From assembly GCA_016176845.1 (NCBI GenBank), contig JACOWJ010000036.1, forward strand, positions 1 to 38,968: a stretch of 38,968 nt of DNA. Direction: 5' to 3'. Below, one piece after another: positions 627-36,088 of this stretch; the first letter of the stretch is position 1; each line of letters opens with the position of its first letter. The position numbers were made by a program, and so were the translations under genes. This stretch comes from Nitrospinota bacterium. GTDB taxonomy: Bacteria; 2-12-FULL-45-22; JACOWJ01. The notes beneath the pieces are model-generated. The model saw nothing but the letters and a program-made list of their open reading frames with translations. It searched no databases and was not told the origin of the DNA.

Positions 627-685
627 GGCCTGTCCGTCCGATTCGGCTGAGGAACTAAACGACGTTAAGGAGTTTTCCCTTTCAA

Positions 686-742
686 TTAGCTCTTAGCTCG
701 TAGCTCAAAGCTCATAGCTGAAAAAGGAAATCCCTATACGAT
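686..742 (+). repeat. TAGCTC word-repeat hairpin with GGAAAT tail
   Basis: Imperfect repeats of the words TAGCTCT, TAGCTCG, TAGCTCA and AGCTCAT fill 686-720. They are followed at 721-742 by AAAAAGGAAATCCCTATACG and AT, the tail that ends several unrelated hairpins elsewhere in this window. A second copy of the word cluster, inverted, is at 2176-2209. No coding potential is evident. The 627-935 spacer otherwise holds only the efp promoter. Confidence 0.6.
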
Positions 743-2223: not shown

Positions 2224-2347
2224 AAATAACTTTCCCATGGTCGAATAGAATAATAGGTTTTAAGTTTTAGGTTTTAGGTTTTAGGGCTTAAAACTTAAAA
2301 CCTAAAACCTAAAACTTTCTGCAGGGAACCAAATGGGAAAGTTATTT
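2224..2347. repeat. 124-bp element with 15-bp perfect terminal inverted repeats around a TTTTAGG hairpin
   Basis: AAATAACTTTCCCAT at 2224-2238 is the exact reverse complement of 2333-2347. Between them, 2255-2317 is a long hairpin of GGTTTTAAG/TTTTAGG words on the left arm and AAAACCT/CTTAAAAC on the right arm. It has no ORF. The nested structure resembles a MITE or large REP-type element upstream of the first trkA gene. Confidence 0.65.
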
Positions 2348-5312: not shown

Positions 5313-5418
5313 ATCGTATCGAAATTTCCTTTTTTGAGGTGCTAGAGGCTAGGAGCTTGGGGTTAGCAAAAGTTCTTCTTCACTAGCCCCTAGTCCCTAA
5401 TCCCTAATCCCTAATTTA
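5313..5418 (-). repeat. TTAGGGACTAGGGGCTAG hairpin with conserved loop and GGAAAT tail (copy 1)
   Basis: Read on the minus strand: TTAGGGATTAGGGACTAGGG words, then the loop GAAGAAGAACTTTTGCTA, then a complementary arm, and finally AAGGAAATTTCGATACGAT (5313-5333). The same loop recurs at about 10736, 22240 and 34908. It lies directly upstream of the c-di-GMP protein gene. Confidence 0.65.
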
Positions 5419-9008: not shown

Positions 9009-9127
9009 CTCGAATCGTATAAGAATTTCCTTTTTAGACAGGATTTACGGGAAAGTTTTAAGTTTCAGGTTTTAAGTGTTAAGCAAGAGACCTAAAACTT
9101 AACACCTAAAACTTAAAACTTAGCTTG
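9009..9127 (-). repeat. 119-bp dispersed repeat, copy A (TTTTAGG hairpin + GGAAAT tail)
   Basis: On the minus strand this starts CAAGCTAAGTTTTAAG, folds through TTTTAGG/CCTAAAA arms, continues CGTAAATCCTGTCTAAAAAG and ends GGAAATTCTTATACGATTCG. It is nearly identical, about 94% by eye, to 31259-31376 on the plus strand. It fills the whole tldD-tldE gap, and its first bases supply the last two tldD codons and the TAA stop. Confidence 0.8.
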
Positions 9128-10694: not shown

Positions 10695-10707
10695 CTCTTG
10701 CTCCTTC

Positions 10708-10762
10708 TAATTAGGGATTAGGGGCCAGGGGCTAGTGAGGAAGAACTTTTGCCAACCCCTAC
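10708..10762 (+). repeat. TTAGGG/CCCCTA hairpin with conserved loop (copy 2, degenerate)
   Basis: TTAGGGATTAGGGGCCAGGG is followed by GAGGAAGAACTTTTGCCA and CCCCTACG. The loop is the family's GAAGAAGAACTTTTGCTA with two changes; the right arm is short and no GGAAAT tail follows. Confidence 0.55.
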
Positions 10763-11002: not shown

Positions 11003-12256
11003 GTGAAGAGTTGCTCGACCCGGGGGGTATCCGGGCCTTTCCCCCGGAGACATTTCTACCCAGGCTTCCTTGGGGTCCTCCTGGTCACAGGGTTGGTCCT
11101 GGCGGGCCAGGCCTGCCGCAGCCGGTGGCCTGGGCTGTCGGCCATCCCGCCCGAAGAAGGTCCCTCCAGCCTGGCAGGGTGGGGGTACCGGGATTATACT
11201 GGGGTAATTCATGTCCATACCGCCTATTCCCCGGACAGCCCGGGGCTCCTTTCAGAGGTGGCGGAGGCGGCCAACGATCGAGAGCTGGACTACGTGCTCA
11301 TCACCGATCATAATACGCTCCGAGGTCTGAAGGAGGGAAACGAAGGATGGTATGGAAGGGCTTTGCTCTTGATCGGCAGCGAGGTCAGCACCACGGATGG
11401 CCACTGCCTGGCTTTTGGGCTGCAGGACTTCTGGGGTGAGGAGAGGCCCGGGGGGAAGATGCCTCCCGAGAGGCTCTTCGAGTTGGCTAAAAGGCAAGGG
11501 GCCCTGCTCTTTATCGCCCATCCCACTCGCCCCAGCAATCCATGGCGCAACTGGGAGGTCTCCAGGGCCAACGGGCTGGAGGTTTACAACCTGGGGACCG
11601 ACCTGAAGCGGATGGTTCCTCTGATCCACCTCCAGGACCTCTTCTTCAGCATCTTTTTGCTCCGATTGGATATCTCCGGGCTGATCCGAAAGCCCGCGGA
11701 CACCCTGGCCCTTTGGGACGACCTGCTGATCCGAGGGAGGAGGATGGTAGGCATCGGGGGCGTGGATGCCCATGCCCGGGTGCGTCTCCTGGGGTGGGGG
11801 GTGGACTCTTATGCCCGCCTCTTCGGTATTCTCCAGACCCATCTCCTCTCGCAGAAGCAGCTCACGGGAAAGCTCCAGCCAGACAAAGCCCTGATCTATG
11901 AGGCTCTGGCTAAAGGCCATGCCTATCTCTCCTTTGGCCTCTGGGGAGACGCCACCGGCTTTGGCTTCTGGGCCCAGGCCGGGGAGAAGCTGAGGGGGGT
12001 CCTGGGGGACGAGGTAGACTGGGAACCGAACCTCAGGCTGGTTGTGGCCGCCCCCGAGGAAAGCAGGATCGTGCTCCTCCGGGATGGCGAGGAGATCGGG
12101 GAAGGGGCTGGGCCCCGGCGGGAGGCAAAGGCGGATCGCCCGGGCATCTATCGCGTAGAGATTTACCAGAAGGTGGGCTTCCGGTACAGGCTCTGGATAC
12201 TTTCCAATCCCATTTTCCTGAAGGAATCGGCGCCGCTATTGGCCGGGTTTCACTAA
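11003..12256 (+). CDS. Membrane-linked PHP-domain phosphoesterase
   Basis: 417 residues. An N-terminal hydrophobic segment (21-36) after RR looks like a signal or anchor, although AGQAC lacks a proper lipobox. The PHP metal centre is intact: HVH at 70-72, TDHN at 101-104, Glu127 in GSEVST, His173 in IAHP, and GGVDAHA near 252. PHP enzymes hydrolyse phosphoesters with a trinuclear metal site; the substrate is unknown. The location suggests an envelope or periplasmic role. The C-terminal 100 residues look like a beta-sandwich. The start is uncertain: GTG at 11003 is 24 nt from GAGGAGGA (10971-10978), while an in-frame CTG at 10991 sits at better spacing. Confidence 0.75.
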   Translation: MKSCSTRGVSGPFPRRHFYPGFLGVLLVTGLVLAGQACRSRWPGLSAIPPEEGPSSLAGWGYRDYTGVIHVHTAYSPDSPGLLSEVAEAANDRELDYVLITDHNTLRGLKEGNEGWYGRALLLIGSEVSTTDGHCLAFGLQDFWGEERPGGKMPPERLFELAKRQGALLFIAHPTRPSNPWRNWEVSRANGLEVYNLGTDLKRMVPLIHLQDLFFSIFLLRLDISGLIRKPADTLALWDDLLIRGRRMVGIGGVDAHARVRLLGWGVDSYARLFGILQTHLLSQKQLTGKLQPDKALIYEALAKGHAYLSFGLWGDATGFGFWAQAGEKLRGVLGDEVDWEPNLRLVVAAPEESRIVLLRDGEEIGEGAGPRREAKADRPGIYRVEIYQKVGFRYRLWILSNPIFLKESAPLLAGFH

Positions 12257-12277
12257 TTCAAAGGAATTTCCATTTTG

Positions 12278-12345
12278 GGATTGCTTCGTCGCTGGCGCTC
12301 CTCGCAATGACACGATAAAGTCATTGCGAGCGAAGCGAGCAATCT
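12278..12345. repeat. Inverted pair of GATTGCTTCG...CGCAATGAC REP-like sequences
   Basis: GGATTGCTTCGTCG...CTCGCAATGAC and then GTCATTGCGAGCGAAGCGAGC form an imperfect long hairpin. This is the common 'TCATTGCGAGCGAAGCGAAGCAATC' type of bacterial intergenic palindrome, split here in two strings. Just upstream, at 12259-12276, an inverted degenerate GGAAATTCC tail is visible. Confidence 0.6.
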
Positions 12346-12420
12346 AAGTCCGGTCGGAGAGGATAAGAGATGCTGCCTGGGTTCATTTTCATACCCCCTA
12401 TCGGGATCAGAACATAGCGC

Positions 12421-22022: not shown

Positions 22023-22198
22023 GTCCCTAAAACCGGTTTTAATCTTTCCCTCTCGATCTAAAAATAGGTTGCAATCCCCTTAAAGGGGATGATAAATTGG
22101 TAACGTTCGATGATAAACCCTTACCATTTCCCCTAAAGGCTTGTCAAGGTGAGAGGTTTTCGGATAGGCCCTTCGAGCGCGGAGGACCTCGCCCCTCA

Positions 22199-22304
22199 AG
22201 TTAGGGGTTAGGGATTAGGGACTAGGGGCTAGTCAGAAAGAAGAGCTTTTGCTAATCCCTAGCCCCTAGTCCCTAGCCCCTAAAAATGGAAATTCCTACG
22301 CATT
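22199..22304 (+). repeat. TTAGGGACTAGGGGCTAG hairpin with conserved loop and GGAAAT tail (copy 3)
   Basis: GTTAGGGGTTAGGGATTAGG and GACTAGGGGCTAG form the left arm. AAAGAAGAGCTTTTGCTA is the loop, and CCCTAGCCCCTAGTCCCTAG the right arm. The tail AAAAATGGAAATTCCTACGC (22282-22304) follows. It stands 33 nt before the HD-domain gene. Confidence 0.65.
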
Positions 22305-31086: not shown

Positions 31087-31116
31087 TTTGCCGGCCTTTC
31101 TTGTGGAATCGAGTTA

Positions 31117-31258
31117 GGGAACAGGTTACAGGGGACAGGGAACAGGGGATCGTCAATCCTTGCCTTTGTCCTTTGCCTTTTGTCTCACGTTCATCTTCTC
31201 ATCCTGTCCATCCGGTAAATACTGTCCATCCTGTCAAAAAAGGAAATGCCTATACAAT
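31117..31258 (+). repeat. GGGAACAGG and ATCCTGTCC word repeats ending in GGAAAT tail
   Basis: 31117-31145 repeats GGGAACAGG, TTACAGGGGACAGG and GAACAGGGG. Then CCTTTGTCCTTTGCCTTTTG, then CATCCTGTCCATCCGG...CTGTCCATCCTGTC (31199-31235), then AAAAAAGGAAATGCCTATAC and AAT (31236-31258). This is yet another word family joined to the same tail, located in the xerC-hslV gap. Confidence 0.55.
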
Positions 31259-31376
31259 CAAGCTAAGTTTTAAGTTTTAGGTGTTAGGTTTTAGGTTCCT
31301 TGCTTAACACTTAAAACCTAAAACTTAAAACTTTCCTGTAAATCCTGTCTAAAAAGGAAATTTCTATACGATCGAG
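31259..31376 (+). repeat. 118-bp dispersed repeat, copy B (TTTTAGG hairpin + GGAAAT tail)
   Basis: It starts CAAGCTAAGTTTTAAG, folds as a TTTTAGG/CCTAAAA hairpin, continues TGTAAATCCTGTCTAAAAAG and ends GGAAATTTCTATACGATCG. It is nearly identical to 9009-9127 in reverse. It overlaps the 3' end of xerC: the last codons (SIV) and the TAG stop are inside the repeat. A partial tail copy lies immediately before it (31236-31258), so the hairpin is bracketed by direct repeats of the tail. Confidence 0.8.
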
Positions 31377-32483: not shown

Positions 32484-34862
32484 CTACTTCTTGTAGATCT
32501 CCTCAGCAGCCTCCTCCTTCGCCTGGCCGTTCCCGGTGGCCGCGAGCTTGCGGGTGCTCTTGCAGCGGGGGTAGCCCGAGCAGGCCAGGAACTTTCCGTA
32601 ACGTCCCGGCTTGATGAGCATGGGGGAGCCGCACTTCTCGCAGACCTCCTCGGTGGCCTCCTCCTGCCCCTGGCTATTCCCTGCGGGAGCGAGCTTGCGG
32701 GTGCTCTTGCAGCGGGGGTAGCCCGAGCAGGCCAGGAACTTGCCATAGCGTCCCGGCTTGATGAGCATGGGGGAGCCGCAATTCTCGCAGACCTCCTCGG
32801 TGGCCTCTTCCTGGCCCTGGCTGTTTCCCGCGGGAGCGAGCTTGCGGGTGCTCTTGCAGCGGGGGTAGCCCGAGCAGGCCAGGAACTTGCCGTAACGCCC
32901 CTGCTTGATGAGCATGGGGGAGCCGCATTTCTCGCAGACCTCGTCGGTGGTCTCCTCGTTCTTGATGGCCCGAATGGTCCCCTCCTCATCCCGGGTGAAC
33001 TCGGCCGTGTTCTTGCACTCGGGATAGCCGGGACATCCCAGGAAATAGCCCTTGCGGCCCCACTTGATGACCATCTGGCGGCCGCACTTCTCGCAAGGGA
33101 TGTCGGTGGGGACCTCTTTTCCCTTCACCCGGGTCATCTCCTTTTGGGCCCGCTCGAGGGTCTGGACGAAGGAGCCGTAAAACTGCGCCAGCGTCTCTGC
33201 CCAGCGGGCCTTGCCCTCCTCGATCTCGTCCAGCTGGTTCTCCATGTTGGCGGTGAACTCCACGTTCAAGATCTCGGGGAAATGGCCGGTCAGCAGGTCG
33301 TTCACCAACAGGCCCAGCTCCGTGGGGGAGAGCTTGCGCTTCTCCTCTCGCACGTAGTCCCGCTCCTTGATGGTGCTGACGATGGAAGCGTAAGTGCTGG
33401 GCCGCCCGATCCCCTTCTCCTCCAGCTCCTTGACCAGCGTGGCCTCCGAATAGCGAGGAGGGGGCTGCGTGAAGTGCTGCCGCGGGACGATCTCCCGAAC
33501 CTTCAGGGCCTCCCCGACCTGTAAGGGCGGCAGGGGCTCCACCTTCTCCCGGTCCAGGAGGTTCTCCTCAGCAACCTCGTCGGCCGGCTCGTCCCGGGCC
33601 TCGACGTAAACCTGCATAAAACCCGAGAATTTGATGACCGCCCCGGTGGCCCGGAAGGTATAACGGCCCGCCGCGATATCGACGGTGGTCATGTCGTAGA
33701 CGGCTGGGGTCATCTGGCTGGCCAAAAACCTTTGCCAGATCAGCTGGTAGAGGGCGAGCTCCTCCTTGCCCAGATAGGGCCGGAGCCGTTCCGGTTCCCA
33801 ACGAACCGAGGTGGGGCGGATCGCCTCGTGGGCCTCCTGGGCCGCAGCTCGTCCTTTGTAGATCGGGGGTTTGGCCGGCAGGTAGTCGGGGCCAAACTTC
33901 TCCCGGATGTACTCCCGGGCCTGCTCCTGGGCCTGGGGAGCGATCCGTGGGGAGTCGGTCCGCATATAGGTAATGAGGCCGACCGGCCCCTCCTGCCCGA
34001 TATCGATCCCCTCGTAGAGCCGCTGGGCGATGAGCATGGTCCGCTTCGGGGAGAATTGGAAGCGGCGGGCGGCCTCCTGCTGGAGTTGGCTGGTGATGAA
34101 GGGGGCGGCGGTAGAACGTTTCCGCTCCTTCTTTTCCACCTTGGCCACCACAAAGGGCGCCCCTTTGGCCTCCTCGACGATCGAGAGGGCCGTCTGCTCG
34201 TCCTTCACCTCCTCCTTCTTCCCATTGATTTTGGCCAGCCGGGCACTGAAAAGCGGAGGGAGGCGCCCTTCCAGGCCCGCCGTGATCGACCAGTACTCCC
34301 GGGGGACGAAGGCCTGGACCTCCCGCTCCCGCTCGCAGATCAGCCGCAGGGCTACCGACTGCACCCGGCCGGCGCTCAGGCCGTAGTTGACCTTCTCCCA
34401 GAGGAGGGGGCTGATCTGGTAACCCACCAGCCGGTCCAGGATCCTGCGGGCCTGTTGAGCATCGACCTTGTTCCGGTCGATCTTGCCCGGGTGCTGCATC
34501 GCCTCTCGGATCCCCGGCTCGGTGATCTCGTTGAAGAGGACACGATAGATGTCCCTTTCCTGAACCCCTTTGAGCTCCTGCGAGATGTGCCAGGCGATCG
34601 CCTCCCCCTCCCGGTCCGGATCGGGGGCCAGGTAGATCCGGTCGGCCTTGCTGGCCGCTTCCCTGAGCTCTTGCAAGATCTTCCCCTTGCCGCGGATGGT
34701 GATATATTCGGGCTCGAAGCCATTCTCGATCTTGACTCCCAGTTTCTTTTTGGGGAGGTCCTTGACGTGCCCCACTGAAGCCTTGACCTCGTAATCCTTG
34801 CCGAGGTACTTCTTGATGGTCCTCGCCTTGGTTGGCGATTCGACGATTACCAGAGATTTCAC
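32484..34862 (-). CDS. topA: DNA topoisomerase I with four zinc ribbons
   Basis: 792 residues. The Toprim domain is at 1-115 (KSLVIVESPTKARTIKKYLG; DPDREGEAIAWHI). The type IA core carries the nucleophile Tyr in GLITYMRTDSPRI near 300. Four C4 zinc ribbons are at the C-terminus: CEKCGRQMVIKWGRKGYFLG first, then three almost identical CExCGSPMLIKxGRYGKFLA units. It relaxes negative supercoils. The start is taken as GTG at 34862, preceded by GAGAAGG at 8 nt; the TTG at 34880 is part of the ribosome-binding region. It follows dprA and precedes xerC by 10 nt, so it is probably co-transcribed with both. Confidence 0.95.
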   Translation of the reverse strand: MKSLVIVESPTKARTIKKYLGKDYEVKASVGHVKDLPKKKLGVKIENGFEPEYITIRGKGKILQELREAASKADRIYLAPDPDREGEAIAWHISQELKGVQERDIYRVLFNEITEPGIREAMQHPGKIDRNKVDAQQARRILDRLVGYQISPLLWEKVNYGLSAGRVQSVALRLICEREREVQAFVPREYWSITAGLEGRLPPLFSARLAKINGKKEEVKDEQTALSIVEEAKGAPFVVAKVEKKERKRSTAAPFITSQLQQEAARRFQFSPKRTMLIAQRLYEGIDIGQEGPVGLITYMRTDSPRIAPQAQEQAREYIREKFGPDYLPAKPPIYKGRAAAQEAHEAIRPTSVRWEPERLRPYLGKEELALYQLIWQRFLASQMTPAVYDMTTVDIAAGRYTFRATGAVIKFSGFMQVYVEARDEPADEVAEENLLDREKVEPLPPLQVGEALKVREIVPRQHFTQPPPRYSEATLVKELEEKGIGRPSTYASIVSTIKERDYVREEKRKLSPTELGLLVNDLLTGHFPEILNVEFTANMENQLDEIEEGKARWAETLAQFYGSFVQTLERAQKEMTRVKGKEVPTDIPCEKCGRQMVIKWGRKGYFLGCPGYPECKNTAEFTRDEEGTIRAIKNEETTDEVCEKCGSPMLIKQGRYGKFLACSGYPRCKSTRKLAPAGNSQGQEEATEEVCENCGSPMLIKPGRYGKFLACSGYPRCKSTRKLAPAGNSQGQEEATEEVCEKCGSPMLIKPGRYGKFLACSGYPRCKSTRKLAATGNGQAKEEAAEEIYKK
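32637..32930 (-). repeat. 147-bp tandem repeats encoding topA zinc ribbons 2-4
   Basis: CTCGCAGACCTC on the plus strand recurs at 32637, 32784 and 32931, exactly 147 bp apart. Each unit encodes a 49-residue zinc ribbon plus a GQEEATEEV-type linker (APAGNSQGQ). The high DNA identity, including third positions, indicates recent duplication or gene conversion. Confidence 0.8.
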
Positions 34863-34875
34863 CGTTGGATACCTT

Positions 34876-34948
34876 CTCAAGTTAGGGATTAGGGGTTAGG
34901 GACTAGCGAAGAAGAACTTTTGCTAGCCCCTAGCCCCTAGTCCCTCAA
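34876..34948 (+). repeat. TTAGGGATTAGGGG hairpin with conserved loop (copy 4)
   Basis: CTCAAGTTAGGGATTAGGGG and TTAGGGACTAG form the left arm. GAAGAAGAACTTTTGCTA is the loop, and CCCCTAGCCCCTAGTCCCT the right arm. It fills the dprA-topA gap, and its CTCAA end overlaps the topA ribosome-binding region. No GGAAAT tail follows. Confidence 0.65.
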
Positions 34949-34951
34949 AAA

Positions 34952-36088
34952 CTAAATATTCCGAACGAAGACTTTGCCCGTCAGCTGCCGAACCAGTCCC
35001 TTGAGCTCCAACATCACCAGGATCCCGGAGACCTGACTGGGCAGGAGCTGGCTATTCCGAATAATGATGTCAATATGGCCCCCCTCCTCGGGAATGGCCC
35101 TCCAAATGGACTCCTCTTCTGCCGATAGGTTCTGGAGTTGGCCCCCTTCTTCTCGCGTGACCGGCCGGCTCTTCAAGCCTCTCAAAACTTCCGGAGGCAG
35201 TTCCTCCAGGATGTCTTCCACCCCTTCCACCAGCTTGCCCCCCATCTTGATCAGCCGGTGGGCCCCTTTGCTCTTGGGGGAGTATGCGGGTCCGGGGACC
35301 GCAAAGACCTCTCGACCCTGCTCCAGGGCGAAATTTGCGGTGATCAGGGCGCCGCTCTGGGCGGCAGCTTCCACCACCAGAGTTCCCAAGGAGAGGCCAC
35401 TGATCAGACGATTGCGGACAGGAAAGTTCAGCCTCTCGGGCTTGGCGAACAGGGGAAATTCCGAGAGAACGGCCCCCGCCCGGGCAATCTCTTCCCTCAG
35501 AGGCCCGCTTTCCGGGGGATAGATGACCGCCAACCCGCAGCCCAGCACTGCGATCGTCCGTCCGCCCGCCGCCATGGCCCCTCGATGGGCACAGCTATCG
35601 ATCCCCCGGGCCAGGCCGCTGACCACGGTGAAACCCAGCTCCGCCAACTCCCGGCTTAGCCTCTCCGTCATCAGTCTTCCATAAGAGGTGGGGCTCCGAC
35701 TGCCCACCAGGGCGATCGAGCAGGCATCGCCCTCCTTCCATTCCCCCTGGGCATAGAGGAGGGGAGGAGGGTCCGGGATCGTCCGGAGGGGAGAAGGGTA
35801 AGTGGCGTCTGTCAAGGTGATCACGGAAAGACCCCGCTTCTCGATCTGCTCCAGTTCCCGCTTCAGGCCCTTTTCCCAATCGAAGGAAGCCATCTCACGG
35901 GCGGTCTTCTCCCCAATGCCTTCGACCTTACAGAGCTGACCCTGCGTGGCAGAGAGGGCTGCCTTGGGGCTGCCGAAATGGTCCACCAACCGCTTGAACA
36001 GGACCCTCCCCACCCCCGGGATCAAGCTTAAGGCTATCCAGTACGCCGGTTCATCCCCACACCGGTGGGGAACATGCTTCTCGATCAC
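34952..36088 (-). CDS. dprA: DNA-processing protein DprA
   Basis: 378 residues. An N-terminal helix-hairpin-helix-like domain (15-75; SLIPGVGRVLFKRLV, KVEGIGEKTAREM) precedes the Rossmann-like core with ALVGSRSPTSYGRLMTERLS near 128. SGLARGIDSCAHRGAMAAGG is near 158, then VLGCGLAVIYPPES and SEFPLFAKPERLNFPVRNRLI. A C-terminal winged-helix domain spans about 310-378. DprA loads RecA onto incoming single-stranded DNA during transformation. The start is GTG at 36088; no ATG lies in frame nearby. It is the first gene of the long minus-strand block and is divergent from the polyprenyl synthase gene. Confidence 0.93.
   Translation of the reverse strand: MIEKHVPHRCGDEPAYWIALSLIPGVGRVLFKRLVDHFGSPKAALSATQGQLCKVEGIGEKTAREMASFDWEKGLKRELEQIEKRGLSVITLTDATYPSPLRTIPDPPPLLYAQGEWKEGDACSIALVGSRSPTSYGRLMTERLSRELAELGFTVVSGLARGIDSCAHRGAMAAGGRTIAVLGCGLAVIYPPESGPLREEIARAGAVLSEFPLFAKPERLNFPVRNRLISGLSLGTLVVEAAAQSGALITANFALEQGREVFAVPGPAYSPKSKGAHRLIKMGGKLVEGVEDILEELPPEVLRGLKSRPVTREEGGQLQNLSAEEESIWRAIPEEGGHIDIIIRNSQLLPSQVSGILVMLELKGLVRQLTGKVFVRNI

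Follow-up and report, generated by a model that had tools for sequence, protein, structure and literature searches.

Two near-identical intergenic spacers in a Nitrospinota genome as very probable miniature IS91-type rolling-circle transposons

A 38,968-nucleotide contig of a Nitrospinota bacterium (JACOWJ010000036.1), analysed whole and called the window here, contains two intergenic spacers that are almost the same and lie in opposite orientation. Their flanks are dissimilar, as the first-pass annotation had already noticed, and the question is what they are and how they came to be there twice. Alignment gave 94% identity over 114 nt between 9014–9127 (minus strand) and 31259–31372 (plus strand), with a spacing of 22,131 nt. 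The units had been described as about 118 bp long; the coordinates were right, but the element proper measures 114 bp, and the roughly 4 extra bases belong to the insertion target. In a whole-genome search with the unit, the second copy was recovered at E = 2.3e-45, so the likeness of the two is far beyond chance. Both consist of a long hairpin, a linker and a conserved tail, which is named the ori core below.

9014–9127, minus strand: copy A, complete miniature element (DNA fold z -5.6)
9014–9035, minus strand: shared ori core of copy A
31259–31372, plus strand: copy B, complete miniature element of the same cassette family as copy A (DNA fold z -4.6)
31351–31372, plus strand: shared ori core of copy B, AAAAAGGAAATTTCTATACG followed by AT, homologous to the ori end of autonomous IS91-family elements

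The exact limits run from 9127 to 9014 for copy A and from 31259 to 31372 for copy B. Copy A starts with the tetramer CAAG (9127–9124) and CTA, followed by the hairpin, the linker TTTCCCGTAAATCCTGTCT, the ori core AAAAAGGAAATTCTTATACG with AT, and the right flank TCGAGCTG. Copy B is followed by the target tetramer CGAG at 31373–31376 (C..G) and then TTA. The left end of copy A supplies the stop codon TAA (9122–9120) of the upstream tldD-like ORF, and the minus-strand xerC-like ORF stops at TAG (31366–31364) within the ori core of copy B; both gene names are our own reading of motifs, and ORFs were called mechanically.

Nearly all of the host assembly, a metagenome-assembled genome of 1,531,706 bases in 61 contigs (68% complete), was read. 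It holds 30 near-full copies of the 114-bp unit with 89–96% identity and many partial ones, and the pair is therefore not an isolated duplication restricted to two copies. A 20-base core (AAAAWGGAAATTCCTATACG) at one end of the unit was searched as AAAA[N]GGAAATTCCTATACG and gave 196 matches in the host genome at 4 or fewer mismatches (reversed-sequence control, 4). This core forms the right end of many unrelated bodies, a dozen or more distinct hairpin cassettes. When the 40 bases to its left were clustered greedily, 12 or 13 clusters had at least 4 copies each, some of them being variants of a single TTAGGG-type body, and roughly ten clusters were smaller. The bodies joined to it include AAGTTTTAAG (copies A and B), TTAGGGATTAGGG, GATTGCTTCG...CGAAGCAATC, GCTCATAGCTC, GGGGACAGGG and CCCCCCTT. 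Only 13 of the 196 elements lie inside an ORF, as compared with 71% of random 110-bp stretches; in another 29, as in copies A and B, a neighbouring ORF has its stop codon.

Two further kinds of arrangement were seen in the host genome (G000). Many AT-rich palindromes consist of seven-base repeats in degenerate form (AATTGAAAATTG...loop...CAATTTTCAATT; G000:C60:1581-1670, C47:7401-7494, C25:5846-5941). Some adjoin an ori core and others seemingly have none; they may be a further class of core-ended elements or a separate hairpin population. Pairs of cores also occur tail to tail, 0–12 bases apart (e.g. GGAAATTCCTCTACGGTGAATTTTGCGTATAGGAATTTCC; G000:C35:69878-69930 and C16 near 20337), an arrangement that a simple insertion model does not directly predict.

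The window itself contains several elements with other bodies:

31110–31258, plus strand: miniature element e171, different body (CGAGTTAGGGAACAGG... CCTGTC AAAAAAGGAAATGCCTATACAAT)
5313–5418, minus strand: miniature element e175, TTAGGG-type body; left TAAA-TTA, ori core, right flank CAAGTTA
22197–22303, plus strand: miniature element e170, TTAGGG-type body; left CAAG-TTA, ori core, right flank TCAATTTA (fold z -6.5)
682–742, plus strand: miniature element e169, GCTCATAG-type body; left TCAA-TTA, ori core
12255–12351, minus strand: miniature element e173, GATTGCTTCG-type body; left GGAC-TTA, ori core partly decayed
34878–34958, plus strand: degenerate TTAGGG-type element; left CAAG-TTA and hairpin kept, ori core lost (fold z -5.3)
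10707–10761, plus strand: degenerate TTAGGG-type hairpin, ori core lost
2257–2319, plus strand: degenerate TTTTAGG-type hairpin without recognisable ori core

The element at 31110–31258 directly abuts copy B, which follows it head to tail. The degenerate TTTTAGG hairpin is a palindrome within a palindrome, enclosed by a 31-base inverted repeat (2208–2238 / 2333–2363; whole structure 2208–2363). Elsewhere in the window (32488–33095), a 147-bp unit is repeated in tandem within a topA-like gene, three times almost unchanged and a fourth time with more divergence; the repeats encode zinc-finger-like C-terminal modules.

Element boundaries were read from the points at which similarity within families stops. 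On the left, it ends just before a tetranucleotide N-R-A-N' that is followed by TTA and then by the hairpin, so that the hairpin end starts in a target-like tetranucleotide. On the right, the order is core, A-T and directly thereafter N-R-A-N'-TTA, with C..G, G..C, T..A and A..T all occurring as outer bases, and insertions precede T|N-R-A-N'-TTA. Neither terminal inverted repeats nor target duplications had been seen at the two spacers, and this extends to the population, in which the ends are not inverted and a flank match of at least 5 nt was found in 0 of 133 elements.

The outer two bases of the target depend on each other. Watson-Crick pairing is possible between N and N' in 120 of the 146 flanks counted as independent (48.4 expected; reached in 0 of 2000 permutations), so that about 18% of target sites lack the pairing. 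It is the sole position pair with this behaviour (z 12.6, next best 3.0). At T-N-R-A-N-TTA sites in the host genome, the bases pair in 87% of cases beside the core and in 29% elsewhere. The same single position pair came out on top in each of three other genomes, with pairing in 36 of 40 flanks in G393, 21 of 23 in G392 and 18 of 20 in G001, a genome of the same order. Pairing is also found at the left end: among the 133 elements with both ends recognised, it is present at both ends in 97, at one in 36 and at neither in 0. The identity of N is roughly independent between left and right (53 equal, 42 expected). Where N differs between the two ends and each end still pairs, the tetranucleotide cannot contain the junction, which must be outside it. 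Within a family, the left tetranucleotide switches pair type, as in the GGGGACAG family (T..A in 20 and C..G in 14 of 37). When 84,980 species genomes were scanned with N and N' left free in the pattern, 22 stretches with the core were returned, 20 of which have the N/N' pair; they come from metagenome-assembled genomes labelled Syntrophobacteraceae, Deltaproteobacteria, Latescibacterota, Planctomycetota, Chloroflexi, Actinomycetota and others. Viral contigs gave zero matches to the strict pattern, and those to a looser pattern were mostly chance matches.

Which enzyme goes with the core was approached by a Pfam Y2_Tnp search of core-carrying genomes, which revealed full-length IS91-family HUH transposase genes. 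In L192 and L195 (both genome G265) and L196 (G393), the gene has the core immediately on its 5' side, facing outward and followed by CGAG, TCAA or TAAA; read inward, the other end is GAAC and a hairpin, like in the miniature cassettes. L192 and L195 represent the same element twice in G265; they agree at 89% over 1567 bp, and their identity stops at T|GAACTTAGCGCCCTTCGGGCGG at one end and at ATTCCTATACTAT|N at the other. Proteins of the core-bounded elements in these other genomes match Y2_Tnp (PF04986; E 1e-33 and 2e-30) and Zn_Tnp_IS91 (PF14319); the domains are thus carried by autonomous copies elsewhere and not by the miniature copies of the window. Plasmid relatives of these transposases are annotated as IS91 family transposases. 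In the more distant L191 and L216, an ori-like sequence is located 3' of the gene, in contrast to its 5' position in the core-carrying relatives. G393 combines its autonomous element with 87 core matches, and G393, G392 and G387 have 71–121 matches each, joined to wholly different bodies (e.g. GTTTATCCTGATAATCTGTGTACATCCGTGTCCA in G393). The core also appears to resemble the textbook IS91/ISCR origins, to judge by one annotated relative. The ISCR origin presumably ends in TTCCTATACGG, a sequence contained in no transposition paper of the literature searched.

From the core on Y2_Tnp/Zn_Tnp_IS91 elements elsewhere, together with the GAAC-hairpin at their other end as in the cassettes, we conclude that the 114-bp unit is very probably a miniature, non-autonomous IS91-type rolling-circle transposon, consisting of a ter hairpin and an ori and presumably served in trans by an IS91-family transposase. 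Its structure, boundaries and copy number, the core linkage and the N/N' rule were read from the sequences themselves. Such a nature explains the absence of terminal inverted repeats and target duplications. The 30 copies bear out the earlier suggestion of a mobile element spread by copying; its kind is IS91-type instead of the proposed MITE or REP type. Points against it are the target sites that lack pairing, the 3' position of the ori-like sequence in L191 and L216, and the lack of an intact transposase in the host assembly (68% complete), in which just decayed IS91 fragments were found (L144, G000:C24:122-253, and G000:C20:16644-16745; HPHLH motif and a C-terminal piece); these belong to a subgroup other than the one carrying the core. 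The source of transposase in this genome may have been lost or may be encoded in the missing third of the assembly.

By analogy with the IS91 family, the miniature elements would move by rolling-circle transposition as follows. The left end would be the tetranucleotide N-R-A-N' and TTA (or CTA), the long hairpin the termination signal (ter), and the right end the ori core AAAAWGGAAATTCCTATACGAT. An IS91-family HUH transposase acting in trans would nick the outer border of the core, between AT and the flanking N-R-A-N'-TTA. One strand would then be peeled off as far as the ter hairpin and the tetranucleotide, cut there, and joined into a new T|N-R-A-N'-TTA site with nothing duplicated. The target tetranucleotide would stay beside the ori, where more elements could enter, giving rise to head-to-tail arrays such as 31110–31372; the pair in the window is as expected from such reuse. 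In Helraiser, the terminal hairpin is the terminator, and loss of the hairpin leads to read-through (PMC4778049). The hairpins here may act likewise, with very different hairpins being accepted. It also counts against the interpretation that a search of the host genome for base-level empty sites turned up just trivial matches, owing to tandem arrays or hairpin repeats. No nested insertions that break another cassette were found there.

Many-copy intergenic palindromes without inverted ends or target duplications would also suit REP/BIME-type repeats moved by a RAYT (Y1 HUH) transposase. We consider this very unlikely: the common end is a non-palindromic core of about 20 bases instead of a tagged stem foot, the same core is borne by Y2_Tnp elements in other genomes, and Y1_Tnp (PF01797), the RAYT domain that the first-pass annotation had proposed to look for, is absent from the host genome (68%-complete assembly; the control was positive in 5 of 14 genomes). 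A classical MITE of a DDE transposon, to which short, multi-copy intergenic units could equally belong, is extremely unlikely, as the ends are not mutual inverted repeats, no target duplication accompanies any of the 133 elements, and many unrelated bodies have just one end in common.

The strong hairpins, the mostly intergenic position and the 29 of 196 elements that hold a neighbouring stop codon could instead point to functional cis elements, such as terminators or structured RNAs, that are selected and copied by recombination rather than transposition. Such an origin is highly improbable in view of the precise ends at a recurrent tetranucleotide, the unrelated flanks, the head-to-tail arrays, the autonomous relatives with a transposase and the target-site covariation in independent flanks; some copies may act secondarily as terminators. 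Integron-like or other tyrosine-recombinase cassettes, with the core as att site, would have modular bodies with one common end and would form arrays, both of which are present. This explanation has hardly any likelihood, however, for no linkage to an integrase came to light, the bodies are too small to hold genes, and the core is borne by a Y2_Tnp element.

For the miniature IS91-type elements, the target rule suggests that what counts is less the identity of the bases than their pairing within the strand. Published targets of IS801, an IS91-family element, are GAAC, GGAC, CAAG and CGAC (PMC3189936), and the IS91-type targets GAAC and CAAG obey the N/N' rule. Where the single strand is cleaved, N probably pairs with N' in Watson-Crick fashion. 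More generally, it is likely that IS91-family transposases recognise target and termini by structure, as any N-R-A-N' whose outer bases are able to pair in single-stranded DNA. We think that the N/N' rule for IS91-type insertions is new within the open literature searched, because the full text on viral Rep pairing (PMC9973303) does not mention IS91, and only two papers of that literature bring IS91, GAAC and CAAG together. If true, a structural pairing rule explains the use of both GAAC and CAAG, transposases come under the 'pair of any identity' rule known from viral Reps, and the old puzzle of IS91-type insertion becomes a testable base-pair rule common with viral rolling-circle enzymes. 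A considerable share of the hairpin 'junk' in environmental bacteria would then be a population of miniature IS91 elements, and intergenic hairpins of several bacterial phyla, a large class that lacks annotation, would be given a mobile mechanism. That very different hairpins can serve as terminator, as the miniature elements suggest, bears on the capture of neighbouring genes by IS91 and ISCR.

Among known systems, REP/REPIN-RAYT elements are likewise palindromic, intergenic, non-autonomous and HUH-related; they differ by their Y1 transposase, the tagged stem foot and the lack of a common ori core, and no RAYT was found here. Helitrons such as Helraiser have in common rolling-circle HUH transposition, a terminal hairpin terminator, and ends (CTAG/CTTG) whose outer bases are also pairable (PMC4778049). 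Unlike the present elements, they depend on a eukaryotic RepHel with helicase, insert between A and T, and have ends that are not homologous to those described here. HUH endonucleases of viral Reps (CRESS-DNA viruses) require a Watson-Crick pair of any identity at -4/+1 for cleavage in vitro (PMC9973303). The likeness lies in the single-strand pair of any identity, which is deduced from sequence here; the Rep pair spans the cut, whereas the pair proposed here would occupy positions -4/-1 of the strand that is cut (5'-TAA N' T Y N|A), and Reps are replication enzymes, not transposition enzymes. The IS91 family (IS91, IS801, ISCR) agrees in the HUH Y2 transposase, the ori and ter ends, and the absence of terminal inverted repeats and target duplications. 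It also inserts beside GAAC/CAAG-type tetranucleotides, has such a tetranucleotide at the left end, and forms short one-ended derivatives, which in IS801 keep an intact right end and have a tetranucleotide at the left (PMC3189936). The present population is distinguished from it by about 200 elements of roughly 60–150 bp with many hairpin bodies and one common ori, by a target of N-R-A-N' with N pairing N' plus TTA, and by a transposase gene that starts beside the ori in the core-carrying autonomous relatives.
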